A DNA stretch of 44,415 nucleotides from Melioribacteraceae bacterium (lineage in GTDB: Bacteria; Bacteroidota; Ignavibacteria; Ignavibacteriales; Melioribacteraceae), in NCBI GenBank assembly GCA_026983955.1, contig JALSTB010000114.1, positions 1 through 44,415 of the forward strand. Reading direction: 5' to 3'. This document shows positions 4,918 to 43,928 of the stretch, one piece after another. Under the pieces are notes generated by a model. It was given only the letters and a program-made list of their open reading frames with translations, did not search any database and was not told where the DNA came from. Every line of letters starts with the position of its first letter. The stretch's first letter is position 1. A program made the position numbers and the translations under genes.

Positions 4918-5517
4918 TTGAAAAAATATCTCGAGAAAAAAGAATCCATAAAAAACGCCGGCAGGGAATTGTTTGTGACGTACGGATTCCAGAAAACAAC
5001 CCTTGAAGATATTGCCGCAAAAATCGGATTGAGAAAAAACTCTCTTTATTATTATTTCCCCGACAAAGAAACTTTATTCAAAGAATTAATTGAAGACGAG
5101 GTAAATTATCATTTCGAGAGATTAAGAAAAATTGTTGCTTCCCAGAAAAGCTCAAAAACAAAAATTTTATCAATCATCAAAGAACTTACAAATTTTGTCC
5201 ACGAAAGGGGAAATAAGTATTCCATAACAATGAAAGCCTTTCTTGAAATCAATCAAATTGTGGAAAATGATTTTCCCGAATTTAAATATCAAGTCTCCGA
5301 AATCATAAACAATATTCTCAAGGAAGGCATTAATAATAAGGAATTCAAAAAACACAATACCAAACAAGTTGCCGACGATATTGTTTTTTTGGTTCGTTCG
5401 ATAGAATTGAACTATTTTTATAATTCCCGCGTTCAATTCGTTTATGAACTCGATTTCGACATGTTATATAAAACAATGAAAAGAATTACAAATTACATTT
5501 TTAATGGACTACAGTAA
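4918..5517 (+). CDS. TetR/AcrR-family transcriptional regulator
   Basis: This 199 aa protein has a canonical TetR N-terminal helix-turn-helix: AGRELFVTYGFQKTTLEDIAAKIGL (about 14-38) followed by the recognition-helix region SLYYYFPDKETLFKEL (43-58). The C-terminal ligand-binding half is poorly conserved, as usual. It is the first gene of a TolC-adaptor-RND cluster and probably represses it, releasing DNA when a pump substrate binds. The start is taken as TTG at 4918: an in-frame TAA at 4900-4902 excludes a longer product and no ATG precedes the conserved helix. There is no obvious Shine-Dalgarno sequence. A palindromic operator candidate overlaps the promoter just upstream. Confidence 0.88.
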   Translation: MKKYLEKKESIKNAGRELFVTYGFQKTTLEDIAAKIGLRKNSLYYYFPDKETLFKELIEDEVNYHFERLRKIVASQKSSKTKILSIIKELTNFVHERGNKYSITMKAFLEINQIVENDFPEFKYQVSEIINNILKEGINNKEFKKHNTKQVADDIVFLVRSIELNYFYNSRVQFVYELDFDMLYKTMKRITNYIFNGLQ

Positions 5518-5538
5518 TTTACAAGACGAAGGTTTAAA

Positions 5539-11515: not shown

Positions 11516-12034
11516 ATGCTAAAGAAAATCACATTTCTTTTCCTGATATTTCCGGTCTTTGTTTTTGCTCAAGTTAAAGATTACCAACTGGGGTCGCCGG
11601 GCATACTTAAAGGTCAGCGTTACGGCGCTTATTACGATTACTCCGACCCGGAAGCAGTTAACATTAAAGTTTCCGTATGGGGTTGGGTTAAGTATCCGGG
11701 TAAATACAAAGTGCCCGATTTTACTTCGGTAGCCGAATTGATTTCTTATGCAGGCGGACCTACAGACGATTCGGATTTGGAACATTTGCGAATTTACAGA
11801 ATAGATGATAACAACAAGCAAAAAATGATAATGTTCGACTATAACGATTTGATGTGGGAAGACCAATTGGAATACAGACACAGAAGGGTTCCCAGCTTAA
11901 AACCCGGTGACGTTCTCATAATTCCCGGAAGTCCAAGACTCTATTTCCGGGATTGGTTCAGTATCAGTCTGTCGGTTTTCTCGGCGCTTATCCAATTAAC
12001 AATTTTAATATTAAACATTACAAAATCAAAGTAG
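11516..12034 (+). CDS. Small SLBB-domain polysaccharide export protein
   Basis: A 172 aa protein with a signal peptide of about 18 residues ending FVFA-Q, one SLBB-like beta-grasp domain (VSVWGWVKYPGKYKVPDFTSVAELISYAGGPTDDSD lies at about 52-87) and a C-terminal hydrophobic helix at about 148-168. Wza-type outer-membrane exporters normally have an N-terminal polysaccharide-export domain before one or more SLBB repeats; that domain is absent here. It could be an accessory periplasmic ring or a membrane-anchored partner of the following tyrosine kinase. The 16-base spacing to that gene supports a joint role in capsule or exopolysaccharide export. Confidence 0.75.
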   Translation: MLKKITFLFLIFPVFVFAQVKDYQLGSPGILKGQRYGAYYDYSDPEAVNIKVSVWGWVKYPGKYKVPDFTSVAELISYAGGPTDDSDLEHLRIYRIDDNNKQKMIMFDYNDLMWEDQLEYRHRRVPSLKPGDVLIIPGSPRLYFRDWFSISLSVFSALIQLTILILNITKSK

Positions 12035-12050
12035 AAAACAGAGGGAAAAA

Positions 12051-14339
12051 GTGAAAGGTAAAAACAACCCTTTATATACAGACCCGAACGTTGATATTAT
12101 GAAAGATTATTTCGACGAAGGTGATACACATACAATTAGGGATTATATCAAAATTGTTCGGGATAATTTGATTCCGGTTATTCTTATTAGTCTTGGTGTG
12201 CTGCTCGCTTCCATAATTTATGCGATTACGGCTAAAGATATTTACAGGTCGGAAACCGTACTTAAAATTTCCCAACCGAAAGGAAATATTTTGGAAGCTC
12301 CGTTGTTGCCGGAATTCGGAAATTACGGCGCCGACAGGTTTATAGCAAACGAAATCGAAACAATGAAAAATATCACAATCCGTGAACAGGTTGCTCGCGT
12401 TATATTGGATTCCTTCAAAACTGCAGGGCACAAAGATAAATTTGCAATGATTTTCAAGCGCAACTATTTCTCGGATGAAAACGACTCCCTCAAATCCATT
12501 TACGAAATTGCCGATATGCTTGAGGACATTATAAATATTGAACAAAAACGCGGACTTGATTTCATCGAATTGTCGGCGGAATCCCCGTCACCTTACGAAG
12601 CGGCGTTGTTTGCCAGAACTTATGCCAATGTTTATCATCAATTCAATCTGCTTGACAACAGAAAACAAGTTACAAAAATCCGCGAGTTCCTTGCCGAACA
12701 AAGGGATGAGAAACTGGAAGAATTACGACTTGCCGAAAATAAATTGAAAACCTATAAATTGACCAGCGGTTCAATTGAATTGGAAGAACAAGCAAAATCC
12801 CTCATCGAAACGATCACGGATTTGGAGGCGAAACTTAATGCAACGGCAATTGATTTGGCGATATCCAAAGAAAAGCTTGATCAATATAAATCGGAATTAA
12901 ACAGAATCGATCCGACGCTCTCACAATATTTGGAAAATAAAGCATCCGAACCTTACATAACTAAACTTCAAGAAGAAATAGCATTGATTGAAACTCAACG
13001 GGACAGGGCAATTGCAAGTTTGGACGGTCAAAAATCCAATAAAGATGTTATTAATAAATATGATCAGAAGTTAAAGGAACTCAAAAGCAAACTGAAGAAA
13101 AACGTTGCGGAATATCAAGCATCCATACTTGCGGCAAGTCCCGAAGAAATAAAAGATCTTTCAAGAAAAATTTTTGAAGAGGAAGTATATTACAATTCGC
13201 TTAAATCTTCCCACGACAAAATGAAACAATTTATCCAAAGATATGAACAAAAATTTAATGCTTTACCCGCAAAATCAATCGACTTGGCAAGATTGAGCAG
13301 GGAAGTATCTGCTTTGGAAAAATTGTATTTGTTACTCGAAGAGAAATACCAAGAAGCATTGGTTAACGAAAAATCCACAACCGGAAACGTACTTATTTTG
13401 AACGAAGCCAGAATCCCACGGGAAGCGGCAAAGCCGAACAGAAAATTAATAATTCTAATCGGCCTTGTTTTGGGATTGGGTCTCGGATTCGGATACGCCT
13501 TGATGAAAAATTATTTTGACAGAAGAGTTAAATCGCCGGAAGATATCGAAGAAAGAAATATAGAGTTGTTAGCCTGGATTCCGAAAATCGAAAAATTCAC
13601 TGTCAACGGTTCGGGCGAAGGTTCCGAGTTTATTGTTGCAAAGAAAAGCGATTCCGTTGCAAGCGAGGCTTTCAGAGCACTTAGAACAAGGATACGCTAT
13701 TCAAGATTTGATAAAGAAAACAAAGTAATTTTGATAACTTCTTCGGCACCCGGCGAAGGTAAATCACTTGTTTCCGTAAATTTGGCCGGTAGTTTCGCGC
13801 AAGTGAACAAAAGAACGGTTATTGTGGATTGCGACTTGCGTAAACCGAGAATTCACACAATCTTCAACCAGAAACGTTATCCGGGCTTTACCGATTATTT
13901 TGTAGGAAAAGTGGCTTATGAGGAAATCGTAAGACATTCGGATGTGGAAAATCTGGATTACATCACTGCCGGAACCATTCCACCGAATCCGTCGGAAATT
14001 CTGGATTCGAGAGGAATGAAATCCTTTTTGAAAAAATTAAGAACAGAATATGACATAATAATTTTGGATTCACCACCGCTGGTAACGGTAACCGATGCCG
14101 AAATTCTTTCCCGTATTGTGGATGAAAGTATTCTTGTCGTTTCCGCTAATCAAACCGATATCGATTTGATGGAAAAAGCCGTTTATTTGTTGAAGCGGGA
14201 CGGACGCGATACATTCATCGGGGTACTCCTTAATAATTTCGATTTCAAATCGAGTTACGGCTCTTATTACAAATATGCTTATTCATATTCCAGAAACGGG
14301 GAAAGCAAAAAGAAAAAGAAAAGTGTTTTTTCAAGGTAA
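12051..14339 (+). CDS. Polysaccharide co-polymerase with fused bacterial tyrosine kinase (Wzc-like)
   Basis: This 762 aa protein has an N-terminal Wzz domain with TM1 at about 38-60, a long periplasmic coiled coil (about 200-430) and TM2 at about 463-483. A cytoplasmic BY-kinase domain follows: Walker A APGEGKS (566-572, K571), Walker A' VIVDCDLRKP (D593, D595) and Walker B IIILDSPP. The last 30 residues hold six tyrosines (Y736, 739, 740, 742, 744, 746), then a lysine run, the classic autophosphorylation tail. Such proteins control chain length and export through phosphorylation cycling. The start is GTG with a GAGGGAAAA site upstream. No glycosyltransferase, flippase or polymerase gene lies beside it, and a terminator follows. 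Confidence 0.92.
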   Translation: MKGKNNPLYTDPNVDIMKDYFDEGDTHTIRDYIKIVRDNLIPVILISLGVLLASIIYAITAKDIYRSETVLKISQPKGNILEAPLLPEFGNYGADRFIANEIETMKNITIREQVARVILDSFKTAGHKDKFAMIFKRNYFSDENDSLKSIYEIADMLEDIINIEQKRGLDFIELSAESPSPYEAALFARTYANVYHQFNLLDNRKQVTKIREFLAEQRDEKLEELRLAENKLKTYKLTSGSIELEEQAKSLIETITDLEAKLNATAIDLAISKEKLDQYKSELNRIDPTLSQYLENKASEPYITKLQEEIALIETQRDRAIASLDGQKSNKDVINKYDQKLKELKSKLKKNVAEYQASILAASPEEIKDLSRKIFEEEVYYNSLKSSHDKMKQFIQRYEQKFNALPAKSIDLARLSREVSALEKLYLLLEEKYQEALVNEKSTTGNVLILNEARIPREAAKPNRKLIILIGLVLGLGLGFGYALMKNYFDRRVKSPEDIEERNIELLAWIPKIEKFTVNGSGEGSEFIVAKKSDSVASEAFRALRTRIRYSRFDKENKVILITSSAPGEGKSLVSVNLAGSFAQVNKRTVIVDCDLRKPRIHTIFNQKRYPGFTDYFVGKVAYEEIVRHSDVENLDYITAGTIPPNPSEILDSRGMKSFLKKLRTEYDIIILDSPPLVTVTDAEILSRIVDESILVVSANQTDIDLMEKAVYLLKRDGRDTFIGVLLNNFDFKSSYGSYYKYAYSYSRNGESKKKKKSVFSR

Positions 14340-29311: not shown

Positions 29312-29881
29312 ATGAACAATAAGTTACTGGATTACGCTTTAAGAGTTCGCCTTCCTATTACACTGTTTGTTATTGCTCTTGCATTCACTGTTACGTTTTA
29401 CGTCTCTAGAGCCGAAAGAGACGGCATAGGTTATCAACCGGATCAACCTATAAAATATTCACACAAACTGCATGCGGGCGATTTACAAATTGATTGCCAA
29501 TATTGCCACACCGGCGTTACAAAAGGAAGGCATGCTTTGGTTCCAAGCGTAAATATTTGTATGAATTGCCATACAATAGCACGCAAGGACAAACCGGAAA
29601 TAATTAAACTTACCGAGTACTATAAGTCGGGTAAACTGCTGCCGTGGAAACGTGTGCACAAAGTTCCCGATTACGTTTATTTCAACCACAGCGTTCATGT
29701 TAACTACGGAATTAAATGCGAAACTTGTCACGGTGATCCCAGAAAAATGGAGAAAATCGAACAAGTTAAAAATTTTAACATGACGGGTTGTTTAAATTGT
29801 CACAGAAATCCGGAAAAACAACTTCCGTACCTCGCAGATGTTAAAAAAGGTCCGGAAAATTGTTTCGCTTGTCACAGATAG
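29312..29881 (+). CDS. actA: Alternative Complex III subunit ActA, pentaheme cytochrome c
   Basis: A 189 aa protein with an N-terminal TM anchor (about 13-31) and five CxxCH motifs at 62-66, 83-87, 136-140, 160-164 and 184-188, so it binds five c-type hemes in the periplasm. Extra histidines (HKLHAG, FNHSVHV) supply distal ligands. In ACIII, ActA collects electrons from the ActB iron-sulfur chain and passes them towards ActE or the oxidase. The usual ActA is of similar size. It starts the respiratory supercluster; the next frame begins 10 bases after its stop. Confidence 0.93.
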   Translation: MNNKLLDYALRVRLPITLFVIALAFTVTFYVSRAERDGIGYQPDQPIKYSHKLHAGDLQIDCQYCHTGVTKGRHALVPSVNICMNCHTIARKDKPEIIKLTEYYKSGKLLPWKRVHKVPDYVYFNHSVHVNYGIKCETCHGDPRKMEKIEQVKNFNMTGCLNCHRNPEKQLPYLADVKKGPENCFACHR

Positions 29882-30055: not shown

Positions 30056-33000
30056 ATGGCTAAATCTTTTGATAAATCCGGAACGAAATTTTGGAAAAGT
30101 TTAAAAGATTATTACGACGATCCGGAAATTTTAAAAAAGAAAGCAAATGAATTTAACGACGGTGTTACGGACGATTTTGATCCCGGTAAACTGAACGGAA
30201 TCTCGAGGCGTAAGTTTATTGCTTTACTTACGGCTTCCGCCGCTTTTACCGCAACTTCATGCACGGATTACAGAGACAAAGGGGAAATTGTACCTTACAA
30301 CAAACGTCCGGAAGAAATTCTGCCGGGCAAACCGAATTATTATGCGTCCACTTGTAAAGGTTGTGAACTTGAATGTGGAATTCTGATTAAAACCCGTGAG
30401 GGACGACCGATTAAGGTGGATGGTAATCCCGAGCACCCCGTTTCACAAGGTAAAATTTGTGCAAAAGGTCAAGCATCAATCCTTAATCTTTACGATCCCG
30501 ATAGATTGACCGAGCCTGTGAAGGGAAGTATGGCTACAACTTGGAAAAAAGCGGATTCCGAAATCATCAAATTGCTAAAAAGTGCAGTTGATGAAAACGG
30601 TGAAATTGCAATTGTTTCCAAAATTATCAACTCTCCCTCGACCTTAAAAGCCATTGAAGAATTTAAAACCGCATATCCCACCGCCAAAGTTTATTTTTAC
30701 GAATATTTCGGTGACGATTTCAAAAGGAAAGCCTGGGAAAAATGTTACGGAACTTCCGCCCTGCCTTCGGTAAAATTAAATGAAGCAGATGTTATTCTTT
30801 CCCTCGAAAGCGATTTCCTCGGACGTGAAGGAAATTATATAGAAAATGCAAGACTTTATGCCGAACGTAAAGACATTATGAAAGGAACCGACTTTAACAA
30901 ATTATATGTCGTTGAAGGCGGGATGTCGTTAACCGGAATGAATGCGGATGTAAGAATAAGAATGAAGCCGGAATATCAAACCGAGTTTCTGCTTTCTTTA
31001 ATAAATGAATTGGTTGCCGGAAATCATGTTCCGGGAGCATACAGAACCGGTGAAATTTTAAACACGGTCGGTGGATTTACATTGAGCGGTTTTGCTCAGA
31101 AATATTCCGTCGATGAGAAAAAATTAACGGAATTAGTTAAAGATTTGGTTGATGGTAAAGGTAAATCGATAATACTTGCCGGAAATACAATGCCCGAAGA
31201 AGTTCATGTTTTGTCGAACCTCTTAAATGAAATGCTGGGCAATACTGCATTGTATGATTATTCTTCGGTTCATCTTAAAAACACGGCGCCGTCATCAAAC
31301 GAAGAAATGAAGCAGCTCGTTGAAAAAATGAGCAACGGATCGGTTAAGGTTCTCATTCATTTCGATTCGAATCCCGTTTACCATTTACCAAAAGATTTGA
31401 ATTATGAAGAGAATGCCCGTAAAGTGCCGGCGGTTATCACGCTTTCGGAAGCGCCGAATGAAACCGTGTCCGTTTCAACTTATACTTTACCGCTGAACAA
31501 TCCGCTCGAATCCTGGGGTGACAGTATTGTCAGATCGAACGTAATTACATTGCAACAACCGGTGATTGCACCTTTGTTCAATACAAGGGAGAAAGAAGCG
31601 GTTCTTTTAACGTGGGCAAGCGGCGATCCGGAAAAATATAATTTCGATATTTACCACAAGTTCGTTCAGAATAATTTTAAAAACGGAATTTACACGAAAA
31701 ATAAATTTGCCGTCGATTTCGATACATTTTGGTATTCCGCTTTGCACGACGGTTTTGTTGAAGTTAACGGTGAACAAAGTCCGCCCAATTTTAACATTTC
31801 AGCAGTCACAGGAATTTCACCATCGGTCAAAGAAGGAATATCGGTGCATCTGCAACCGAATTATTATTTGGGTGACGGCAAGTTTTCCAATAACGGATGG
31901 TTGCAGGAAATTCCCCATCCAGTTACAAAAGTTGCTTGGGATAACTTTGCCGCTATGTCTTTGGCGACTGCAGAAAAACTTGGCGTTACTTTCAACGATG
32001 TTGTTAAAGTTAGCGTGAACGGTAGTGAAGTGGAATTGCCCGTTATGATGCAGCCGGGAATGGCTGACGATTTAATAGTGGTGGAAGGTGGTTACGGAAG
32101 GAAAAATTCCGGAGAAGTAGCGCAAGATGTCGGGTTTAATATCAATACGTTAATTGTCACTGCCACCGCTTCACCGTTTGTTCTGCAAGCGGCAAATGTC
32201 TCGAAAACAGGCAAAACTTACAAGTTGGTTTCCACACAAGAGCATAATTTCTTGGTCGATCCTTCCTTGCGGGAATTTCATAAAATCAGAAAAATTATAT
32301 TCGAAGGGACTTTGGAAGAATATGAGAAGGATCCCAAGTTTTTAAAGGAAGAAGAAAAAGTTCTGAAAGGTATTACGCGGGAACACGAATACCCCGGTTT
32401 GAAATGGGGAATGGCGATCGATCTTAATAAATGTATTAGTTGCGGAATTTGTGTGGCATCGTGTAATGTGGAAAACAATATTCCGGTTGTAGGCAAAGAT
32501 CAAGTTGAAGTGGGACGTGAAATGCAATGGATGCGAATCGACCGGTATTATTCCGGTGAACCTGAAGACCCGCAAGTCAGCAATCAACCGATGCTTTGCC
32601 AGCATTGCGATAATGCACCTTGCGAAAATGTATGCCCGGTTAATGCAACAAACCACAGTCCCGATGGAATTAACCAAATGGTTTACAACAGATGTGTTGG
32701 AACAAGGTATTGCTCTAACAACTGCCCGTACAAAGTAAGAAGATTCAACTTTTTCGATTTCCGAGACCATTTTGCCGATGCTTATTACCAAAACGATATT
32801 ACGGCTTTGGCACACAACCCCGAAGTTACGGTCAGGTCGCGCGGAGTAATGGAAAAATGTACTTTCTGTATTCAAAGGATTATGGAAGCAAGGGAAGATG
32901 CAATCAGGGAAGGAAGGGAACTGAAAGGTACCGATGTTCAAACGGCTTGTCAGCAAGCGTGCCCGTCAAATGCGATTATCTTTGGAGATATTAACGATCC

Positions 33001-33124
33001 GGATTCCGAAGTTTCCAAATACAGAAATCATGATATCGGTTATCATGTTTTGGAAGAATTATACGTAAAACCAAATATAACTTATATGGCTAAATTGAGA
33101 AATACTCGTTCGGAGGATGTATAG
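30056..33124 (+). CDS. actB: Alternative Complex III subunit ActB, molybdopterin-like/iron-sulfur fusion, Tat-exported
   Basis: A 1022 aa protein with a late twin-arginine signal, [17 protein letters not shown] (48-64, R51-R52), ending in a lipobox-like cysteine C69. The front lobe follows the molybdopterin oxidoreductase fold, normally cofactor-free in ACIII. Here it keeps a complete C100-x2-C103-x3-C107-x27-C135 motif of the kind that holds a proximal [4Fe-4S] cluster. The rear lobe from about 793 is a NrfC/PsrB-like ferredoxin with [11 protein letters not shown] (C793-C803), [36 protein letters not shown] and CQQACPS, normally three [4Fe-4S] and one [3Fe-4S]. It passes electrons from the quinol site of ActC to ActA. 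Its stop codon overlaps the actC GTG by one base. Confidence 0.95.
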
Positions 33125-34491
33125 TGAGTAGCATTGATTATACTCAAGAATTACCGGTTATTGAAGGTCGCCCCACGCTTAAGGAGATAAATGAGTTAAT
33201 AGCCAAACCTTTGGACCAAAAGCCGGATAAGAAATTTTATATAGCGCTGTCAATTACCTTAACGATGTTGCTTGCCGGAGCGATAGCGCTTGGATTTACT
33301 TTCTATTACGGCGTAGGTCTGTGGGGAAATAACAATCCCGTCGGTTGGGGCTTCCCGATTGTAAACTTTGTGTTCTGGGTTGGTATCGGTCATGCCGGAA
33401 CTTTGATTTCGGCTATATTGTTTCTCTTCCGCCAAAAATGGAGAAACGGTATTGCAAGATTTGCCGAGGGAATGACAATTTTTGCAGTGATGACAGCGGG
33501 GCTCTTCCCATTGATTCACGTCGGTAGACCTTGGTTGGCCGGATATTTAATTCCTTATCCCAATCAACATTCGCTTTGGGTGGATTTTAATTCACCGCTC
33601 TTGTGGGATGTTTTTGCGGTATCCACTTATTTTACCGTGTCATTTATCTTTTGGTATGTGGGTTTAATACCCGATTTTGCATCTTTAAGAGACAGAGCGG
33701 TTGGCAAAGTTAAAAAAACAATTTACTCCATTTTCAGTTTGGGTTGGAGGCATTCCAACAGACACTGGTCGCACTACGAAATGGTTTACCTGGTACTGGC
33801 CGGTTTCGCTACTCCGTTGGTGCTTTCGGTTCATACCATTGTTAGTTTCGACTTTGCCGTATCGATTTTGCCCGGTTGGCACGCTACAATTTTCCCGCCG
33901 TATTTCGTTGCGGGTGCCGTATTCTCCGGTTTCGCTATGGTGCAAAATGTTCTTATTTTTATCAGGAAAATTTTCAATTACGAGCATATTATTACGTTGG
34001 ACACTCTTGAAAAAATGAATAAGATAATTATTTTGACCGGTTCAATGGTTGGTTATGCTTATGCAATGGAATTTTTTACGGCATGGTACAGTGGTGTTCA
34101 ACCGGAACAATTTACATTTATTAACAGGGCTTTCGGACCTTACGCTTGGGCATATTGGATAATGGTTTCTTGCAATGTGATTTTCCCGCAGTTATTCTGG
34201 ATTCGTAAAATCAGAAGAAGTATTCCCGTTATGTTTGTAATTGCGGTTTTAGTTAACGTTGGAATGTGGTTCGAAAGATTTGTAATTACCGTAACTTCCT
34301 TGCATCGTGACTTTTTACCTTCGAGCTGGGCGTATTTCAAACCTACTGTGGTTGATGTTGCGATTCTTATTGGCAGTTTCGGATTTTTCTTCACTTGGAT
34401 ATTGTTATTTACCAAATCGTTACCAGTAGTTTCAATAGCAGAAATAAAAGCTGTAAACGAAGGTGCGCAACCTTCTCATGGGGAACATTGA
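33124..34491 (+). CDS. actC: Alternative Complex III subunit ActC, NrfD-like quinol-binding membrane protein
   Basis: A 455 aa membrane protein of the NrfD/PsrC family with about ten TM helices. Hallmarks include [43 protein letters not shown] and [15 protein letters not shown] in the first half, and [32 protein letters not shown] in the second. ActC holds the menaquinol oxidation site and forms a proton path with ActF as its paralogue. GTG start, overlapping the actB stop codon. One base separates it from the actDE start. Confidence 0.95.
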
Positions 34492-34492
34492 A

Positions 34493-35632
34493 ATGAGTGA
34501 TAAAATTTTATATTCATTAACAGGACTTTTCGATACTCCGGATGAAATAATCGCCGCTGCCGAAAAAGTGCAGTCGGAAGGTTATACTAAATATGATGTA
34601 AATACACCGTATCCAGTTCACGGCATGGATTCGGCAATGAAACTGCCGATGTCAAGATTGCCTTACGTGGCAATGGTTGTCGGTATAACAGGAATGTTCT
34701 TGGCTCTGTTTTTTATGTGGTGGACAAATTCGGTTGATTACCCGCTGGTTATTGGCGGAAAACCTTATTTTGCATTTCCGGCTTATGTGCCTATCATGTT
34801 CGAAGTAACCGTTCTTTCGGCATCAATTGCCACTGTGGTTACCATGATAGCCATAGTTTTCAAATTCCCGAATAATAGCCATCCTCTGATGGATACGGAG
34901 TATATGAAAAACGTTTCGGTTGATAAGTACGGTATAAGTATTGCTGCCGACGATCCGAAATTTGATTTTGATAAAGTTAAATCTCTTCTCGAATCACTTG
35001 GAGCAAAAAATATTACTCCAATTTATTACAAGGAAGAGGACTTAAACTTCAAACCGAAAACATTTGAACCCAAGTTTGTTATTGCAATGATAGTGTTGTT
35101 TGCAGCTGTTTCGGCTGTAACTTACATAACATTGAATAAATTAATGTACTTGCCTCCGTTCGATTGGATGATGGAACAATCGAAAGTGATTGCCCAGGAA
35201 CGAAGCGATGTATTTGAAGATGGCAGGGGAATGCGAACGCCTGTGGAAGGAACGGTAGCCAGAGGATTTTTGCCTTATAAATTTAAAAATAATCCCGAAG
35301 CAGCCGGGAAATACTTGGTTAATCCTTTGGCTGCAACGGAAGAAAATTTGAGCTTGGGTGAAAAGAAATTTGATATTTACTGCAGTCCTTGTCACGGTTA
35401 TTTGGCTGAAGGAGACAGTAGATTGAAAGGACAGTTCCCGAGTCCGCCCAGTTTACATTCGAAAAAAGTGAGAAATTGGAGCGACGGCAGAATTTATCAT
35501 GTAATTACCGAAGGGCAAAATGCAATGCCGTCTTATGCATATCAATTAAGTCGTAAAGAAAGATGGGCGGTTGTACTTTACATTAGAGCCCTACAACGTT
35601 CATTAAATGCTAAGGAGTCTGATTTACAATGA
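34493..35632 (+). CDS. actDE: Fused ActD-ActE subunit of Alternative Complex III
   Basis: A single 379 aa frame joins two subunits normally encoded separately. Residues 1-185 are ActD (DUF3341): SLTGLFDTPDEIIAAAEKV, two TM helices, then KYGISIAADDPKFD. After a linker, a TM segment (about 192-213, FVIAMIVLFAAVSAVTYITL) leads into an ActE-type monoheme cytochrome c with CSPCH at 297-301 and a distal Met in GQNAMPSYAYQL. Usual ActE is a separate lipoprotein; here a TM helix replaces the lipid anchor. ATG at 34493 is chosen over a longer frame from 34463 that would overlap actC, because it begins the conserved ActD sequence. It overlaps actF by four bases. Confidence 0.9.
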   Translation: MSDKILYSLTGLFDTPDEIIAAAEKVQSEGYTKYDVNTPYPVHGMDSAMKLPMSRLPYVAMVVGITGMFLALFFMWWTNSVDYPLVIGGKPYFAFPAYVPIMFEVTVLSASIATVVTMIAIVFKFPNNSHPLMDTEYMKNVSVDKYGISIAADDPKFDFDKVKSLLESLGAKNITPIYYKEEDLNFKPKTFEPKFVIAMIVLFAAVSAVTYITLNKLMYLPPFDWMMEQSKVIAQERSDVFEDGRGMRTPVEGTVARGFLPYKFKNNPEAAGKYLVNPLAATEENLSLGEKKFDIYCSPCHGYLAEGDSRLKGQFPSPPSLHSKKVRNWSDGRIYHVITEGQNAMPSYAYQLSRKERWAVVLYIRALQRSLNAKESDLQ

Positions 35633-36819
35633 GTGATTCACCGGATGTAATCAATTATACCAAAAAAGAATTACCGTCGAATTTTGTAAAGTTCGGTTAC
35701 GCCGCTTTTGTAGCCGGTCTCGTTCTCGTAATTCTATCGCTGTTTGTCGATAATGTGAGAAGTGCTTTTAGCGGTGTTATGCTTTTAATGTTTGTTGCCA
35801 GTATCGGTGTCGGTTCGTTATTTTGGATAGTAGCCGAATATTTAAGCGGCGCCGTTTGGAGTACTCCTTTCAGGCGTGTGGCGGAATTTCTGGGAGCGGT
35901 CTTGTTCGTTTTGCCTGTAATTGCTTTACCCGCATATTTTAATATGCACGATATTTTTCATTGGACACACCAAGAGGTTGTAAAATCCGACCATTATCTC
36001 TCAGCCAAAGCACCGTATCTAAATGTACCGTTTTTTACAATCAGATCAATAGTATTCATCGGAATTTGGGTATTGTTTTATTATTTGATTACTAAAAATT
36101 CAAGATTACAAGATTCAACTAAAGATCAAAATTTGACCAGAAAAAATATTAAACTTTCAGCGGTATTCGTTCCGTTGTTCGCCTTGTCTATAACGTTTTT
36201 TGCCATAGATTGGTTGATGAGTCTCGAACCGCACTGGTTCTCTACGATTTTCGGTGTTTATTATTTTGCGGGCACCGTTCTTGCCGCCATGGCTGCCATA
36301 ACATATATTGTTGTTACTCTAAGTGAAAAAGGTTACTTTTTCGAAGGAGTTAAAGCCGATCATTATTACAGCTTCGGTGCTCTGTTATTCGGATTTGTGA
36401 ATTTTTGGGCATACATTGCTTTTAGCCAGTTTCTGCTTATTTGGTATGCAAACCTTCCCGAAGAAACTATTTGGTACCTCCAACGTTGGGAAGGTTATTG
36501 GATGTATTTTTCCATAGCTTTGATTTTTATACATTTTATAATCCCGTATTTCGGACTTTTGGCCCAACCGTCCAAAATGAGTCCGAAACGGCTTAAATTT
36601 ATGTCGCTTTGGATATTATTTGCCCATTTCTTCGATATAATGTGGATGACTATGCCTACTTATCAAGAGTTCGGTTATATTCCCGGATGGATTGAATTGG
36701 GTTATGCTTTGTTCGCTATCGGATTGATTCTGGTAGTTTTTAATTGGAAAGCCAGTAAAGAAAACCTTGTCCCTGTTGGCGATCCGAAATTAAAAAGAGG
36801 AATTAATTTCAGACTATAA
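35629..36819 (+). CDS. actF: Alternative Complex III subunit ActF, NrfD-like membrane protein
   Basis: A 396 aa protein with about ten TM helices, a paralogue of ActC. Motifs include FWIVAEYLSGAVWSTPFRRVAEFLGA, FHWTHQEV, FAIDWLMSLEPHWFSTIFGVYYFAG, and FNFWAYIAFSQFLLIWYANLPEET-like sequences typical of ActF. It lacks a full quinol site in characterised enzymes and is thought to form the second proton-path half. It overlaps the actDE end by four bases, consistent with coupled translation. Confidence 0.94.
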   Translation: MSDSPDVINYTKKELPSNFVKFGYAAFVAGLVLVILSLFVDNVRSAFSGVMLLMFVASIGVGSLFWIVAEYLSGAVWSTPFRRVAEFLGAVLFVLPVIALPAYFNMHDIFHWTHQEVVKSDHYLSAKAPYLNVPFFTIRSIVFIGIWVLFYYLITKNSRLQDSTKDQNLTRKNIKLSAVFVPLFALSITFFAIDWLMSLEPHWFSTIFGVYYFAGTVLAAMAAITYIVVTLSEKGYFFEGVKADHYYSFGALLFGFVNFWAYIAFSQFLLIWYANLPEETIWYLQRWEGYWMYFSIALIFIHFIIPYFGLLAQPSKMSPKRLKFMSLWILFAHFFDIMWMTMPTYQEFGYIPGWIELGYALFAIGLILVVFNWKASKENLVPVGDPKLKRGINFRL

Positions 36820-36835
36820 AATTTTGTGAAAAACT

Positions 36836-37765
36836 ATGAACGAAAAAAGAAAAATTGAACCTGAAGTGGATTTCAACGACATGTTGAAAAATCCGCACAG
36901 ATTATTCGGATTATTCTACATACTTGTTTTCCTTGTAATTCTTGCGGGTGGAATTTATTATGTGAAACATCTCGATCAAATAGCATTTAACCGGGGCGGT
37001 TATACCGTGCCGGATATAGATTTAAGCGAATTTAAAAAAATCGAAAGAAAAAAAGGCGGGGTGAAACCGGCAATCGATATCGCTTCCATTAAGAATTCGA
37101 GCAAAGAAGATATTGCGAAAGGAAAGGAATTGTTTGTCAAGAATTGTTCGGCTTGTCATGGTACTGAAGGTAAAGGCGACGGACCAGCCGGAGCCGCATT
37201 GAATCCCAAACCCCGTAATTTCACAAAATTGGAAAATTGGACTAATGGTCCCGACATTTTTAACATGTATAAAACCCTTCAGGAAGGTGTGCCGGGAACC
37301 GGAATGACGGCATATGAATTTTTACCTCCTTCCGATAGAATTTCGATTATTCATTTCATCAGAACGCTAGCAGATTATCCTGAAATTACTGATGAACAGA
37401 TTAAGAAATTGGATGAAAAATATCAATTGTCAAAGGGCGTGATTGAGCCTAATACCGTACCGTTACCTATTGCTATGAAAAAGATTTCCGAAGAGGAATC
37501 GTTGGTATTGAAGAAAAAGGATGAGTTGGTTGATAAAGTACAAAACGACAATAGTAATGAAGCAATGTTGCTGAAAAAAGTAGCTAACAATCTCAATAAT
37601 GTTATATATCTCTTTGCTTCCCATAAACTTAATAACGATTATGAGAATTTTGTCCGTAAAGTAGCAAGTGATCCGGTTACTTACGGATTTAATTCTTCAA
37701 TCCTTAGGCTCAACGAAGAAAACCTTAAAGCCCTGTATGATTATTTGAGTAAGTTGGCTGGCTAA
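36836..37765 (+). CDS. Membrane-anchored monoheme cytochrome c
   Basis: A 309 aa protein with one N-terminal TM anchor (24-43) and a periplasmic class-I-type cytochrome c domain: CSACH at 104-108 and a likely axial Met in GTGMTAYEF near 157. The C-terminal 130 residues are helical and lack motifs. It lies 16 bases after actF and 13 before sco, so it is an extra carrier within the ACIII-oxidase locus. It could shuttle electrons from ACIII to the oxidase, replacing a soluble cytochrome c. The role is inferred from position. Confidence 0.85.
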   Translation: MNEKRKIEPEVDFNDMLKNPHRLFGLFYILVFLVILAGGIYYVKHLDQIAFNRGGYTVPDIDLSEFKKIERKKGGVKPAIDIASIKNSSKEDIAKGKELFVKNCSACHGTEGKGDGPAGAALNPKPRNFTKLENWTNGPDIFNMYKTLQEGVPGTGMTAYEFLPPSDRISIIHFIRTLADYPEITDEQIKKLDEKYQLSKGVIEPNTVPLPIAMKKISEEESLVLKKKDELVDKVQNDNSNEAMLLKKVANNLNNVIYLFASHKLNNDYENFVRKVASDPVTYGFNSSILRLNEENLKALYDYLSKLAG

Positions 37766-37778
37766 TTAACAATTTTAT

Positions 37779-38555
37779 ATGAGCATTAGAAATTACCTAA
37801 CACTAATTGTTTTGGTGTGTGGAGTATTTTATTCAAACACCGGAGCAAAAGAATATCAAACCGTTGATATTGGTATTGATGAAAATCGCGGTGGCTATTT
37901 GCCACTTGATGCCACTGTGGTAACTTCAACGGGCGATACGGTTGCGCTGCGTGATATAATTAAAAAACCTGTATTGCTTGATTTGGTATATTATGAATGT
38001 GCGGGAATTTGTCATCCCCTATTGCAAGAATTGACTTGGGCGGTAGATAGATTAAATATGGTGCCGGGAAAAGATTTTGAAGTAATTACCCTGAGTTTCA
38101 ATCCGGGGGAAGACTACCGCACTGCCCGTAAGTGGAAAAAATCATATTTGCAAAGTATGAAAAGGGAATTCCCGGAAAATGCATGGTATTTCCTTACCAC
38201 CGACAGTTTGAACATTGCCAAGGTTACAAACGCAGTGGGCTTCAAATATCAACCCCGGGAAGGGATGTACGTCCATGCCGGATGTATTGTAGCCATATCG
38301 CCGGAAGGAAAAATTTCAAGATATATTTATGGTGATTCGTTTAATCCTTTTGATTTGCAAATGGCATTGATTGATGCACAAAAAGAGGAAGTAAGACCCA
38401 CTTCGGCAAAGCTCTTGCAATTTTGTTTTAGTTACGATCCCGAAGGTAGAAAGTATACGCTTAATATTACACGTATTGCAGGAAGTCTGATTTTATTGGG
38501 TATTTTAATTTTTTTGGTGGTATTAATATTTAAAAGAAAAACTAAGGAGACATAA
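37779..38555 (+). CDS. Sco/SenC-type copper chaperone
   Basis: A 258 aa thioredoxin-fold protein with a signal sequence (to about 23), the copper ligands C74 and C78 (YECAGICHPL) and H166 (MYVHAGC), and a C-terminal TM helix (about 232-252) that tethers it to the membrane. Sco proteins load copper into the CuA centre of oxidase subunit II, encoded 2.6 kb downstream. Its stop codon abuts the coxA ATG with no intervening bases. Confidence 0.92.
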   Translation: MSIRNYLTLIVLVCGVFYSNTGAKEYQTVDIGIDENRGGYLPLDATVVTSTGDTVALRDIIKKPVLLDLVYYECAGICHPLLQELTWAVDRLNMVPGKDFEVITLSFNPGEDYRTARKWKKSYLQSMKREFPENAWYFLTTDSLNIAKVTNAVGFKYQPREGMYVHAGCIVAISPEGKISRYIYGDSFNPFDLQMALIDAQKEEVRPTSAKLLQFCFSYDPEGRKYTLNITRIAGSLILLGILIFLVVLIFKRKTKET

Positions 38556-40202
38556 ATGGCTAACGGAACTGCTGTTATAGCAGGTAAAAGCTTTTATGAA
38601 GAAGGCACAACAAAATCCAAAAGCGGGATTGCTTCGTGGATTTTCAGTACCGATCATAAAAGAATTGGCCTGTTATATCTAATTTCCATTGTTTCATTTT
38701 TTATTATTGGTGTAATTATTGCCGAATTAATACGTTTGGAGTTAATTGCTCCCGGAGAAACAATTGTTGATGCGGAGACATACAATAGATTATTCACGCT
38801 GCACGGCGTAATAATGATCTTCCTTTTTATAATTCCGGGCATTCCGGCTGTTTTCGGGAATTTCTTCCTGCCTATTCAAATAGGTGCAAAAGATGTTGCT
38901 TTCCCGAGGTTAAACTTATTGTCGTGGTGGTTATATATGACCGGTGCTGTTCTGGCAATAACTTCACTCTTTTTGCCGGGCGGACCAGCAGATACGGGAT
39001 GGACATTTTACGTTCCTTACAGCGTGCGTACAGGGTCAAACGTCATTTTTGCTTTACTCGCAGCTTTTATACTCGGTTTCTCATCAATTTTAACCGGTTT
39101 GAATTTCGTAACCACTGTGCACCGACTGAGAATAAAAGGGATGTCATTTTTCAAAATGCCTTTAAATATTTGGGCTTTGTATGCTACCGCATGGATTCAA
39201 GTAATTGCCACACCTATTATCGGTATTACGTTGCTGTTGATAATTATTGAAAGGACTTTCGGGGTAGGAATTTTCGACCCGACCCTTGGTGGCGATCCGG
39301 TTCTTTACCAGCATTTGTTTTGGATTTATTCACATCCCGCAGTTTACGTTATGATATTGCCCGCAATGGGAGTGGTTTCCGAAATAATTGCCACATTTTC
39401 GAGAAGAACCGTTTTCGGATATAAAATGGTTGCGTTTTCTTCGCTTACCATTGCTTTTGTGGGTTATCTGGTTTGGGCGCACCACATGTTTACCGCCGGT
39501 TTGAGTGAAACCGCAGCAGTTGTTTTTTCATTACTAACTTTTATAGTAGCAATACCAAGCGCCATTAAAGTGTTTAACTGGGTTGCAACTATGTACAAAG
39601 GCTCAATCGATCCGAGAACACCGTTTAAATGGGTAATGGTTTTTATATTCCTTTTTTCTATCGGCGGATTGACCGGTTTGGTTTTGGGTTCGTTGGCAAC
39701 CGATGTTCACCTTCACGATACTTATTTCGTTGTGGCGCATTTCCATTTTGTAATGTTCGGCGGGGCTGGTACAATATTCTTCGCGGCAATGCATTACTGG
39801 TTCCCGAAAATGTTCGGGAAAATGTACAACGAAAAAATTGCCGATATTGGTGTGTATATGTTTTTGATTTCTTTTTTAACCCTTTATTTCCCCATGTTTT
39901 TATTGGGGTATAACGGTCAACCGAGAAGGTATTTCGATTATTTGCCGCAATTCCAAACCCTTCATGTTATTTCCACAATTGGTGCATGGATGATGTTAAT
40001 AACAATTACACTGGTAGTTTGGAATTTGATTCATGCATTACGCAAAGGGGAGAAAGCACCCGACAATCCGTGGGGTGGCGTTACACTCGAGTGGCAAACT
40101 TCTTCTCCACCACCTTTGGAAAATTTTGAAGAAATGCCGAATGTGCCTAATGAACCTTACGATTTCAGTCATTTAACGGGAATTAAAGATGGAAGCAAAT
40201 AA
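38556..40202 (+). CDS. coxA: Cytochrome c oxidase subunit I (A2-type heme-copper oxidase)
   Basis: A 548 aa protein with 12 TM helices. The active-site stretch [12 protein letters not shown] (Y258, S259, H260, Y264) has the His-Tyr cross-link pair, but lacks the Glu of A1 oxidases (HPEVY); the Tyr-Ser form defines the A2 group, as in Rhodothermus caa3. [21 protein letters not shown] keeps a D-channel aspartate, and [21 protein letters not shown] carries heme and CuB histidines. It reduces O2 and pumps protons. It overlaps coxC by 14 bases. Confidence 0.97.
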
Positions 40203-40815
40203 TATTTCTGAACATGTAACCCACAGGCACCGCGACGATGTTGGAGCCAAACTTGGTATGTGGTTGTTCTTGTTTACCGAATTGTTACTCTTCGGCGGTA
40301 TGTTTTTGGCCTACGCCGTTTACCGGATGAAATATCCGCAGCAATTTCATATTTCCGCTATGGAAATGAATACAACTATGGGAACACTTAATACCATTAT
40401 TCTTTTGACGAGCAGTCTTACAATGGTACTCTCAATAGCAGCAATGCAAAAAAGAAATAAATTCCTTTCCATAATCTTTTTGTTATCAACTTTATTTTTA
40501 GGGACTTTATTTTTAATTAATAAATATTTTGAATGGTCACATGAAATTTCCAAGGGGATTTATCCGGGCAGCGAAGTTTTGCTTTCGAAACAAAACGGGG
40601 AAATTTTATATTTCGGTTTATACTATGCTATGACCGGACTGCACGGATTACATGTGATTATCGGAATGATCGTATTGGTGTTTATGTTGGTTTTTGTAAT
40701 TAACGACAACATAAAATGGGATGATTATGTAAAATTGGAAAATGCCGGATTATATTGGCATTTGGTAGATATTATCTGGATTTTCTTATTCCCCTTATTC
40801 TATTTAATTCAATGA
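40189..40815 (+). CDS. coxC: Cytochrome c oxidase subunit III
   Basis: A 208 aa membrane protein with about five TM helices. [26 protein letters not shown] (about 21-46) is the start of the subunit III core; [11 protein letters not shown] and [20 protein letters not shown] are the canonical late motifs. It stabilises subunit I and proton uptake. The frame begins in the coxA 3' end (14-base overlap) and ends seven bases before the subunit IV gene. Confidence 0.95.
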
Positions 40816-40822
40816 GGTCATA

Positions 40823-41119
40823 ATGCAAGAAAAAAATACTGGAAATTCTCATCATATAATCGATTACAGCACTTATGTATTCGTTTGGGTAATGTTGGTG
40901 GGTTTAACAGCCCTTACCGTTACCATAGCGGGTATAAATTTAGGCGATTATACATTAGTTGTTGCCTTGTTTATCGCTTTGATAAAGGCTTCGCTTGTAA
41001 TTGCAATATTCATGCATATTAAACTTGAAGAACCGATTTTTAAAGTCTTTATCGCAATTATTCTGGCTACATTGGCAGTTATTTTTATATTAACGTTTAT
41101 TGATTACACTTTTAGATGA
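40823..41119 (+). CDS. coxD: Cytochrome c oxidase subunit IV family protein
   Basis: A 98 aa protein with three TM helices, matching the small prokaryotic subunit IV family: STYVFVWVMLVGLTALTVTIA (about 16-36), then ALFIALIKASLVIAIFMHIKLE, then a last helix. Only a structural role is known. It is placed between subunits III and II. Confidence 0.88.
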   Translation: MQEKNTGNSHHIIDYSTYVFVWVMLVGLTALTVTIAGINLGDYTLVVALFIALIKASLVIAIFMHIKLEEPIFKVFIAIILATLAVIFILTFIDYTFR

Positions 41120-41131
41120 GGTAAATAAAAC

Positions 41132-41740
41132 ATGCTTTACTTGGAAGTAACCTCCCACGCGGAAAAAGTGGACAGCGTAATGTTATACATTACGGTTATC
41201 TCCTTGATTTTTTTGATCGGTATAACAGCAACAATGTTATACTTCGTTTACAAATACAACCGCAAAAGAAATCCCGAAGCTAAAAATATCCATGGAAATT
41301 TTTGGCTGGAGTTCGTTTGGATAGTAATCCCCACAATTCTGGTTTTAACAATGTTCTATTACGGCTATGTTGGATATAAGGATATAAAAGCCGATCCCGG
41401 GGAAGATGCCTTAACCGTTCGCGCAGTTGCCCAGATGTGGAAATGGGAATTCGTCTATGAAAACGGGAAAAAATCCGATACTCTGTATGTCCCTTCCGGC
41501 AAACCGGTAAGATTGTTATTGGTTTCGCTCGACGTAAACCATTCACTTTATATCCCGGCATACCGTGTAAAACAGGATGTTGTTTTGGGCACTACCAACA
41601 AATTGATTATTTATCCCGAAAAAACCGGTGATTACGATATTGCTTGCGCCGAATATTGTGGATTGAAACATTCGATGATGTATACAAAACTTCGCGTAGT
41701 GGATGAAAATAATTTTAATGATTGGTACGCAAAAAAATGA
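41132..41740 (+). CDS. coxB: Cytochrome c oxidase subunit II with CuA site
   Basis: A 202 aa protein with two TM helices (about 17-40 and 61-82) and a periplasmic cupredoxin domain. The binuclear CuA ligands are complete: H137 (VNHSLY), and C172-x-E174-x-C176-x3-H180-x2-M183 in CAEYCGLKHSMM. Aromatic entry residues are in QMWKWEF. Unlike many caa3-type enzymes, no cytochrome c domain is fused to its C-terminus, so electrons must arrive from a separate cytochrome. The gene is last among the oxidase subunits instead of first, an unusual order. It overlaps ctaB by four bases (ATGA). Confidence 0.95.
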   Translation: MLYLEVTSHAEKVDSVMLYITVISLIFLIGITATMLYFVYKYNRKRNPEAKNIHGNFWLEFVWIVIPTILVLTMFYYGYVGYKDIKADPGEDALTVRAVAQMWKWEFVYENGKKSDTLYVPSGKPVRLLLVSLDVNHSLYIPAYRVKQDVVLGTTNKLIIYPEKTGDYDIACAEYCGLKHSMMYTKLRVVDENNFNDWYAKK

Positions 41741-42606
41741 ATATTAGGGAAACGATAAAAATATTAATGGAGCTTTCGAAATTCCGGATTACCGTTTTCG
41801 TTGGATTTTCAACTTCCGTAGGATATATTCTCGCTTCCGGTAAACTTGATCCGTTTATGATTGTGCCCACGTTTGGAGTGTTTTTGTTGGCATGCAGTTC
41901 GTCGGCATTAAACCATTATCAAGAGCGTGATGTTGACGGTTTGATGGAAAGAACAAAACAAAGACCTTTACCCGCCGGAAAAATTTCCGTTCGTAATGCT
42001 CTGTTGTTTATTGTTGTATCTTTTATAACCGGTTCGGCAATTTTGTATTTTAGTGCAAATACAATTTCACTTTTATTAGGTTGGTTGGCTTTTATTTGGT
42101 ATAATCTTGTTTATACGCCGCTTAAAAGGAAATATGCATTGGCGGTAGTTCCCGGTTCACTTATTGGAGCACTTCCGCCGATGATAGGATGGACGGCAGC
42201 GGGTGGTAATGTTTTCGATCCCCAAATATTGGCTTTAAGTCTCTTTTTCTTTATTTGGCAAATACCTCATTTTTGGCTGCTGCTCTTGCTTTACGGTAAA
42301 GAATACGAAAAAGCGGGGTTCCCTTCGCTCACAAGTGTATTTAGCGATAAACAGTTAATGAATTTAACATTTGTTTGGATTGTTGCATTATCAATATGTT
42401 GCCTGTTAATACCGTTTTTCGGGTTTACAAAAAGTTTAATTACAATTATTTTATTAGTAATTTTAGGAGGATGGTTAATTTTTTCTTCCGCCAAGCTTTT
42501 ATATTTTATAAATGCGGTACAAGTTAAACGTGCGTTTATGAGAATCAATATGTATATATTATTTGTGGTTCTTTTAATTTCAATAGATAAATTAGTAATA
42601 ATTTAA
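41737..42606 (+). CDS. ctaB: Protoheme IX farnesyltransferase (heme o synthase)
   Basis: A 289 aa UbiA-family membrane enzyme with about nine TM helices. NHYQERDVDGLMERTKQRPLPAG carries the polyprenyl-phosphate/Mg2+ aspartate motif, and WYNLVYTPLKRKYALAVVPGSLIGALPPMIGW is typical of CtaB. It farnesylates protoheme to heme o for the oxidase. The ATG at 41737 overlaps the coxB TGA (ATGA); a TTG at 41722 would add five residues but is less likely. No heme a synthase (ctaA) is present here, so heme a formation must rely on a gene elsewhere, or the enzyme uses heme o. Confidence 0.93.
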   Translation: MNIRETIKILMELSKFRITVFVGFSTSVGYILASGKLDPFMIVPTFGVFLLACSSSALNHYQERDVDGLMERTKQRPLPAGKISVRNALLFIVVSFITGSAILYFSANTISLLLGWLAFIWYNLVYTPLKRKYALAVVPGSLIGALPPMIGWTAAGGNVFDPQILALSLFFFIWQIPHFWLLLLLYGKEYEKAGFPSLTSVFSDKQLMNLTFVWIVALSICCLLIPFFGFTKSLITIILLVILGGWLIFSSAKLLYFINAVQVKRAFMRINMYILFVVLLISIDKLVII

Positions 42607-42623: not shown

Positions 42624-43928
42624 ATGGACTTTCTACAAAACATCGTATTACCGCAATCGGCTGAACATATTGAATTAATCAGAGGTTTGATAATAGTTTC
42701 ATTTGTGATTTTATTACCGTATTTGGCATTTGTAACAGGTTCCGTATTTTATTCTTTGCTGTATGCCGGAAAAGGAATTAAACAAAATAATTTATTACCG
42801 CTTTTGTTGGCAAAAGATTTGAGTGAGCAAGCGGCATTCAGTTTCTGGCGTTTATTTGCATTAATCGTCATCCCGGTTTTGGCAATCATTTTCGGATATG
42901 CTCAATTACTTAAAGATTCGGGCTCCCTCGCCGCAGAGTATTTGGTGCTCGGGTTATTGTTTTTCATCAGTGCCGTTGTAGCCATTTATGCTTACAATAA
43001 CACTTTTAATTTAATTGAAGAAAACAAAGAAATTCAATTCGGTAAAAACAAAGTATTCAAAACCATCGGTTGGCTCGGTTTCTTTTTATTATTGATCGGC
43101 GTTTATATTACAATAAGTTCGATACAACTTGCAATTGAAAAAGTTTACTGGGGAATGCCGGAACAAATATCGGCAGTTTCTTTTTCCACGCCAACCATAG
43201 TGGACTTTTTCTTATTTCTGGTTTTTGCTTTGGCTATTTCGCCGGTTGTTTTACTTGCCGTTTATTTCCGTCCGAATTCCACTAAAAAGGCAAACGAGGA
43301 ACATAAACAATACATTAAAAACTTTGCGCTAAAGTCCGCATTGATTTTCTCGGTTATTCTACCCGTTTACATGCTTCTTGGAGTTGTATCATTACCGGAA
43401 TACTCATTGAACAACGTATCTTTCTTCGTTACCTTGGTTGCTTTGTTATTAATGATTTTTGCAGCAAGTTACATTTATGTTATGAGAAGGGATAACAACG
43501 GAGAATACGCACCTCTTACACTTTTTTTGTTCCTTCTGATTTTTGCTCTCGTTATTTTCAAAGATCATTATGCGATGGGCACCACAACAAAAGAACATGC
43601 TAAACTGCTTGCGGCAAAATATGAGGAATATCAAGCGGAAGTTAAAAAAGAATTGGGTATAGCAGTTGAAGAGAAAATTGACGGAGAGCAAATTTATAAC
43701 ACGATTTGCTCCGCTTGCCACAGCTTCGATAAAAGAATAGTAGGACCTCCGTACAACGAAACACTTGTTAAATACGAAGGGAAAATGGATGATCTGGTGG
43801 ATTTTATTCTAAACCCGAGAAAAGTTAATCCGGATTATCCGGCAATGCCCAATCAAGGGCTTAAACCGAATCAAGCAAAAGCTGTTGCGGAATTTATTAT
43901 GAAGCACTACCAAGAAAATAAAAAATAG
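42624..43928 (+). CDS. Eight-TM membrane protein with C-terminal cytochrome c domain, unrecognised architecture
   Basis: A 434 aa protein. About eight TM helices (near 18-45, 75-95, 103-124, 147-170, 193-215, 236-256, 265-285, 297-313) are followed by a charged linker and a cytochrome c domain with CSACH at 362-366 and a likely axial Met at 408 (YPAMPNQGL). The membrane part contains almost no histidines, so it is unlikely to bind b-type hemes, and I do not recognise its family. It is the last gene of the ACIII-oxidase operon, 17 bases after ctaB. It may be a membrane-integrated electron carrier or an additional oxidase subunit that replaces the fused cytochrome c of caa3 enzymes. The function is inferred from context. 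Confidence 0.8.
   Translation: MDFLQNIVLPQSAEHIELIRGLIIVSFVILLPYLAFVTGSVFYSLLYAGKGIKQNNLLPLLLAKDLSEQAAFSFWRLFALIVIPVLAIIFGYAQLLKDSGSLAAEYLVLGLLFFISAVVAIYAYNNTFNLIEENKEIQFGKNKVFKTIGWLGFFLLLIGVYITISSIQLAIEKVYWGMPEQISAVSFSTPTIVDFFLFLVFALAISPVVLLAVYFRPNSTKKANEEHKQYIKNFALKSALIFSVILPVYMLLGVVSLPEYSLNNVSFFVTLVALLLMIFAASYIYVMRRDNNGEYAPLTLFLFLLIFALVIFKDHYAMGTTTKEHAKLLAAKYEEYQAEVKKELGIAVEEKIDGEQIYNTICSACHSFDKRIVGPPYNETLVKYEGKMDDLVDFILNPRKVNPDYPAMPNQGLKPNQAKAVAEFIMKHYQENKK

Follow-up and report, generated by a model that had tools for sequence, protein, structure and literature searches.

The window, by which is meant the whole stretch of 44,415 nucleotides that was analysed, contains a respiratory operon whose genes all lie on the forward strand. 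Its first genes are those of ACIII: an ActA-like multiheme cytochrome c (29312-29881; PF14522, PF02085), an ActB-like molybdopterin/FeS protein (30056-33124; profile match), ActC of the NrfD family (33124-34491; PF03916), an ActD-ActE fusion that includes a cytochrome c (34463-35632; PF11821 and PF13442) and ActF (35629-36819). They are followed by a monoheme cytochrome c (36836-37765; PF00034), in which an N-terminal hydrophobic segment can be recognized by eye, and by a Sco copper chaperone (37779-38555; PF02630). The oxidase genes come next: CoxA (subunit I, 38556-40202; TIGR02891, 669 bits for a cut-off of 670.75), a short form of CoxC (subunit III, 40189-40815) that matches positions 68-255 of the 258 positions of the COX3 profile, CoxD (subunit IV, 40823-41119; PF03626) and CoxB (the CuA subunit, 41132-41740; profile match). 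CoxB has 202 residues and is made up of the COX2/cupredoxin domains alone, lacking the cytochrome fusion of the caa3 type. After the heme O synthase CtaB (41722-42606; TIGR01473, 210.9 bits for a cut-off of 210.3), the operon ends with the gene studied here (42624-43928), an open reading frame with an ATG start that encodes 434 amino acids. This last position had been anticipated in the original prediction, and the profiles confirm the operon for every gene except ActF, which has no Pfam or NCBIfam match and was named by its position. The operon includes no bd partner gene; a CydA (PF01654) is encoded elsewhere in the same genome (C177).

The protein had been described from its sequence as an eight-TM membrane protein with a C-terminal cytochrome c, and both its predicted structure and its Pfam matches bear this out. 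The AlphaFold2 model, made from 68 aligned sequences (mean pLDDT 91.3, pTM 0.80), shows eight long helices (13-54, 74-95, 103-133, 143-171, 189-215, 225-255, 264-290 and 296-321) that are taken as membrane-spanning, some extra helices (57-71, 181-186 and 323-343) and, set apart from these, a C-terminal domain. K+R residues number 3, 2, 3 and 2 in the loops that follow helices 1, 3, 5 and 7, respectively, against 0 in the N-terminus and 1, 1 and 0 in those that follow helices 2, 4 and 6, a pattern that fits an N-out/C-out topology with a periplasmic cytochrome. The linker after helix 8 (residues 322-352) carries charges of both signs, with six K+R and seven D+E.

The C-terminal domain (residues 352-434; 43677-43925) is a class I cytochrome c similar to c551/c552. 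It is the only significant match of the protein to Pfam and NCBIfam (PF13442, 27.7 bits for a cut-off of 27; PF00034, 27.2 bits for a cut-off of 21.3), and the matches of a PDB sequence search are likewise confined to this domain and the linker (residues 336-428). Three features mark it as a member of its class: its structure matches c551/c552 in VIA-align with Z about 10 (10.1 for 351c), the CxxCH heme c attachment motif (CSACH, residues 362-366; 43707-43721) is invariant in the 68 aligned homologues, and so is Met408 (43845-43847), the distal methionine and likely sixth heme ligand; the CSACH motif and a likely Met408 ligand had both been pointed out in the original prediction.

Fold, ancestry and heme sites of the membrane domain

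The membrane domain (residues 1-337; 42624-43634) had been assigned to an unknown family. This is no longer the case, as its predicted model has the fold of cytochrome bd subunits and its profile can be linked to CydA-like proteins. In VIA-align, residues about 10-337 were matched to ten bd oxidase chains, which were taken as subunit I on account of their length, with Z scores of 23.1-25.6 over 303-312 residues and rmsd values of 3.2-3.8; the best match is 7oy2_C (Z 25.6, 308 residues, rmsd 3.6), and 5doq_A has the same fold with Z 24.6 (307 residues, rmsd 3.2). The sole Foldseek match below 0.001 is to the qOR-2 type bd oxidase of M. smegmatis, one chain of which gives E 5.3e-4 and, relative to target length, TM 0.61. 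In VIA-align, the next-best folds are those of subunits C and F of ACIII, at Z 17.4-18.2, followed by polysulfide reductase C (Z 15.6). ActC and ActF, of the NrfD fold, were considered as relatives for this reason and set aside, since their hhalign probabilities are only 0.2-3.1%; all the hhalign controls (ActC, ActF, CoxA, CtaB and CoxC) remain at or below 3.1%.

The sequence relationship is less direct. The protein itself matches neither PF01654 nor PF02322. One of the 68 family members matches PF01654 (E 0.0074), a result that stands among ten other scattered Pfam matches, found in one or two members each, some of which are stronger (AA_permease, 4e-5; Tetraspanin, 1.7e-4); none of these was used as evidence. 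Compared straight to CydA with hhalign, the membrane domain reaches only 8.6-15.4%, and 0.2-0.3% with CydB. The connection is made by a family of CydA-like proteins with a C-terminal cytochrome c (11 aligned sequences, L172-L182), to which the membrane domain of the family aligns with 89.5% (E 2e-6), or 94.3% (E 1e-7) when two distant homologues, L157 and L158, are added to it. The CydA-like family in turn aligns to CydA with 96.8-97.8%, and a set of three second subunits (L157, L158 and L178) does so with 85.6%. In each of the two genomes that encode these distant homologues, the gene immediately upstream is that of a CydA-like protein bearing a C-terminal cytochrome c of its own. These profile comparisons support the descent of the membrane domain from the bd superfamily, through intermediates rather than by a direct match.

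The CydA-like proteins, which we assume may correspond to the bd 'OR-C' groups, resemble the protein studied here in having a bd-type membrane domain and, in 7 of 11 cases, a C-terminal CxxCH. They differ from it in being nearer to CydA and in showing no link to ACIII in the stretches that were read. A histidine of the CydA His19 type is present in 7 of the 11, and L179-L182 lack both this residue and the CxxCH.

This histidine, the N-terminal heme ligand, which we take to be His19 in the E. coli CydA numbering, is replaced in the protein by Leu30 according to the sequence alignments, while L157 and L158 have a histidine at the position equivalent to Leu30, aligned with the N-terminal His of CydA. 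The original prediction had noted that the membrane domain has nearly no histidine. This is true of the protein itself, where residues 1-337 contain four (H15, H227, H315 and H325), but H15 (42666-42668) is kept in 66 of the 68 homologues (Asn in the other 2), a conservation that a single sequence could not reveal. It is the sole conserved histidine of the domain; Q94 (67/68) and Y285 (66/68) are also conserved. With regard to the b558/b595 ligands, a comparison of sequences shows H15 as the only conserved histidine. Since Leu30 occupies the position of His19 and only H15 is conserved, the protein is apparently not a bd oxidase, and the b and d hemes are presumably absent from its membrane domain. 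Compared to CydA/CydB, the whole membrane domain shares the fold, as judged on the predicted model, whereas the protein differs in Leu30, in its C-terminal cytochrome c, in the lack of a Pfam bd match and in the lack of a bd partner in the operon. A clear hit to a characterized enzyme family, which would have spoken against the original prediction, was found for the fold only, and extends neither to the heme ligand tested nor to a direct sequence match.

One could still consider that the membrane domain binds a b-type heme and forms a distinct quinol-reactive subunit. The bd fold and the conservation of H15 could be read in this way, as could the histidines that are in the majority at position 97 of the 68-row alignment and at position 129 of a 20-row alignment. 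Nevertheless, the protein of the window has neither H97 nor H129, and the leucine at the His19 position and the replacement of H15 by Asn in two homologues make this hypothesis improbable.

Distribution and co-occurrence with ACIII and the oxidase

In a sample of 198 genomes from the phylum, the near full-length homologues among the matches listed come from the class of the window (Ignavibacteria, according to the titles of the named loci) and from one genome outside it (G147); the other out-of-class matches listed are mostly lone cytochrome c domains. A contig scan confirmed 155 relatives, and gene neighbourhoods were counted for the best 80 of them. CtaB lies directly upstream in 71 of these loci, whereas the gene is located between CoxB and CtaB in 4, after CoxB in 2 and after CoxD in 1; in all, a cox gene or ctaB adjoins it in 78 of the best 80. 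The gene had been suspected to be an electron-transfer subunit connected to its operon, and this neighbourhood, along with the lack of a fused cytochrome in CoxB, makes such a role probable. A location far from the oxidase genes in most relatives, which would have contradicted it, was observed in just 2 of the 80. A cox neighbour is also lacking in L044 and for the distant homologues L157 and L158, which are among the further loci that were read. L044, L093 and L125 contain full-length homologues with no ACIII or cox genes within the stretch read. The neighbours are NrfA- and NapC/NirT-type cytochromes and a hemerythrin in L044 and nitrate reductase subunits in L093, and the same gene set as in L093 was recognized by eye in L125. 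These contexts suggest that the family may have a part in another route as well, possibly the respiration of nitrogen oxides.

The presence of the gene was then compared to those of ACIII and the oxidase in 97 related genomes, with E-values below 1e-100 required for CoxA and below 1e-40 for CoxB, and at least 60% identity for ActC. The gene is present in 83 genomes, ActC in 83, and CoxA or CoxB in 73, none of which lacks the gene. As would be expected from a subunit of ACIII, which should be encoded and co-occur with it, ActC is found in 81 of the 83 genomes that bear the gene; two have the gene only (G032 and G066), two have ActC only and 12 have neither. In one of the two ActC-only genomes the contig ends in ActF (G054) and in the other an unreadable stretch follows ActF (G027). 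The ten genomes that have the gene and neither CoxA nor CoxB all have ActC. The gene tracks ACIII more closely than it tracks the oxidase, as judged from these counts; Fisher values, which take no account of common descent, were given no weight.

These ten genomes also show what remains at the locus when the oxidase core is missing. In nine of them CoxC and CoxD are still upstream of the gene, while CoxA, CoxB and CtaB are gone from the locus or reduced to fragments. Eight of the ten loci consist of ACIII, the cytochrome, CoxC, CoxD and the gene, with CoxD directly upstream. In one of these, G002, CoxC is preceded by a CoxA remnant of 74 aa. The ninth locus, that of G086, has a Sco fragment before CoxC and a CoxB fragment after CoxD, the latter separating CoxD from the gene. 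The tenth locus, in G007, has ACIII, the cytochrome and the gene only, with neither CoxC nor CoxD. That CoxB, suggested in the original prediction as a docking partner, would be essential finds no support in these genomes, and a role restricted to CoxB was rejected because the gene persists in its absence. The nine ACIII loci that keep CoxC and CoxD are L246, L247, L248, L249, L166, L049, L047, L052 (with the CoxA fragment) and L250 (with the Sco and CoxB fragments).

The oxidase-less state requires seven changes, at least four of them forced by starred branches, on a tree of ActC, ActDE and ActF (58 rows) obtained by a quick search without bootstrap; gain and loss cannot be separated by the tree alone, and it is the remnants of CoxA in G002 and of Sco and CoxB in G086 that point to loss. 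In several lineages, oxidase subunits III and IV would outlive subunits I and II. Downstream of the gene in G068 lie a metal ATPase and a fused CcoN-CcoO, so another oxidase may take the place of the missing one.

The cytochrome domain has been kept in five of the ten core-less genomes (G002, G016, G029, G086 and G088) and is absent from the other five (G007, G020, G028, G043 and G068). A simple rule by which the domain would be lost whenever CoxA and CoxB are lost is contradicted by G016, G029 and G088. The cytochrome-less proteins of G020, G028, G043 and G068 have 342-365 aa and are encoded beside ACIII, CoxC and CoxD. Pairs of these copies are under purifying selection, with a dN/dS of 0.14 for G043 and G020, and of 0.13 for each of them against G028, where dS is saturated. 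The copy of G007 is similar in position and length to one found in G039, a member of the same genus, in addition to the standard copy. In G039 (L046), both copies are in one operon (5473-6495 and 11678-12832): the one right after the ACIII cytochrome is cytochrome-less, and the standard copy ends the operon, truncated in its heme motif where the contig stops.

These copies bear on the possibility that the protein chiefly serves CoxB as a membrane-anchored donor cytochrome c, with the bd-like domain as a mere anchor. The c551-like domain, the CoxB without a fused cytochrome and the adjacency of CoxB or CtaB in 77 of the best 80 of the 155 loci would all be congruent with such a donor. Yet, an anchor without cargo is not expected to be kept, and the persistence under selection of the membrane domain alone, in genomes lacking CoxA and CoxB, makes this explanation unlikely.

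A further hypothesis for this neighbour of CtaB comes from the absence of the heme A synthase CtaA: COX15-CtaA is absent from all 97 relatives, and PF02628 has no match in the six frames of the genome of the window (G000), even though CoxA and CtaB are present. Moreover, of the 27 class-level genomes sampled beyond the order, the gene is present in 9 and CtaA in 18, with both in one (G178) and neither in one (G182). The protein could therefore be imagined to replace CtaA. A single conserved histidine in the membrane domain, the fold of bd subunits and the retention of the gene in 9 operons without CoxA and CtaB at the locus led us to reject this idea, which we regard as very improbable. The oxidase type provides a further reason: according to passages of PMC5492636, the M. 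roseus oxidase is a cc(o/b)o3 enzyme of the A2 subtype that shares 66% identity with an oxidase of unusual heme content from D. vulgaris, in which case a heme A synthase may be unneeded. The lack of COX15-CtaA in the genome of the window agrees with an oxidase that contains no heme A. The distributions of the gene and CtaA also fit the A2-subtype assignment, and may be a sign of the oxidase type, not of a heme function for the gene.

A possible docking and electron-relay subunit of ACIII

On this comparative evidence, it seems rather likely that the protein is an ACIII-bound subunit for docking and electron relay, which works with CoxC and CoxD. The bd-fold membrane domain, devoid of the CydA His19-type heme site, would join CoxC and CoxD in providing a scaffold for docking on ACIII, and the tethered c-type heme, on the periplasmic side, would receive electrons from the cytochromes of ACIII and pass them to the CuA site of CoxB. 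This is the task that the cytochrome fused to CoxB would carry out in caa3 oxidases. The likeness to caa3 subunit II would lie in this tethered cytochrome for the CuA site; the difference is that here the protein is separate, with an eight-helix domain of its own, and its CoxB has no cytochrome. In the F. johnsoniae ACIII-oxidase structure, according to a review (PMC8361435), the two complexes meet through oxidase subunit III, which lacks helices 1-2. The partial COX3 match of the CoxC in the window is what would be expected from a similar short form, and the retention of CoxC, CoxD and the bd-fold protein with ACIII is expected if the three form the side that faces ACIII. Two observations count against this proposal: the two other monoheme cytochromes of the operon (ActDE and the one at 36836-37765) could relay electrons as well, and the cytochrome domain is not strictly tied to CoxB, given its even split among the ten core-less genomes. 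In addition, the locus of G007 has lost both CoxC and CoxD, the full-length homologues of L044, L093 and L125 stand apart from ACIII and cox genes within the stretch read, and no such subunit is described in the available excerpts on the ACIII-oxidase assemblies of F. johnsoniae and R. marinus. Among the papers listed in the literature searches, which also supplied PMC5492636, PMC3534657, PMC8552683 and PMC8361435, none presents a bd-fold ACIII subunit in its title or the first lines of its abstract.

A bolder version of this docking role, which we put forward tentatively as a possibility, is that CoxC, CoxD and the bd-fold protein are not part of the oxidase, but an exchangeable output adapter of ACIII. 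Such a set could outlive the repeated loss of the catalytic core (CoxA/CoxB, CtaB), shed its cytochrome and dock ACIII to other acceptors, as for instance the cbb3 oxidase encoded after it in G068. If this were true, a bd-oxidase fold without the heme site would be a structural part of a complex III-IV assembly. The protein would be a case of a cytochrome bd fold reused in a non-catalytic manner in a different respiratory assembly.

The identity of the electron carrier from ACIII to the oxidase becomes a testable question in Melioribacter roseus, whose orthologue is probably MROS_0033. In G011, counting ORFs from the beginning of the contig puts the orthologue 33rd, and ORF 31 resembles a sodium:solute symporter by eye; in the relevant passages of PMC3534657, Mros0031 is listed among the SSS transporters and Mros0039-0033 make up the oxidase cluster, which is why the two genes were equated. 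MROS_0033 is labelled as a class I soluble cytochrome c551/c552 in parts of both PMC3534657 and PMC5492636, and according to the latter it was reliably identified in aerobic cells only, as were CoxI, CoxII, ActC and ActDE. If the correspondence is right, the 'soluble' label misses the eight-helix membrane domain, and what was published as a soluble cytochrome would have to be corrected to a membrane subunit.

An arrangement of a different kind was noticed around the CydA-like proteins with a C-terminal cytochrome c. In L174-L177 their gene adjoins that of a cytochrome b, recognized by profile in L174 (PF00033) and by eye in the other three, with a Rieske domain next to it in L175 (profile match), which places a bd-type cytochrome carrier beside a bc-type complex in these four loci.
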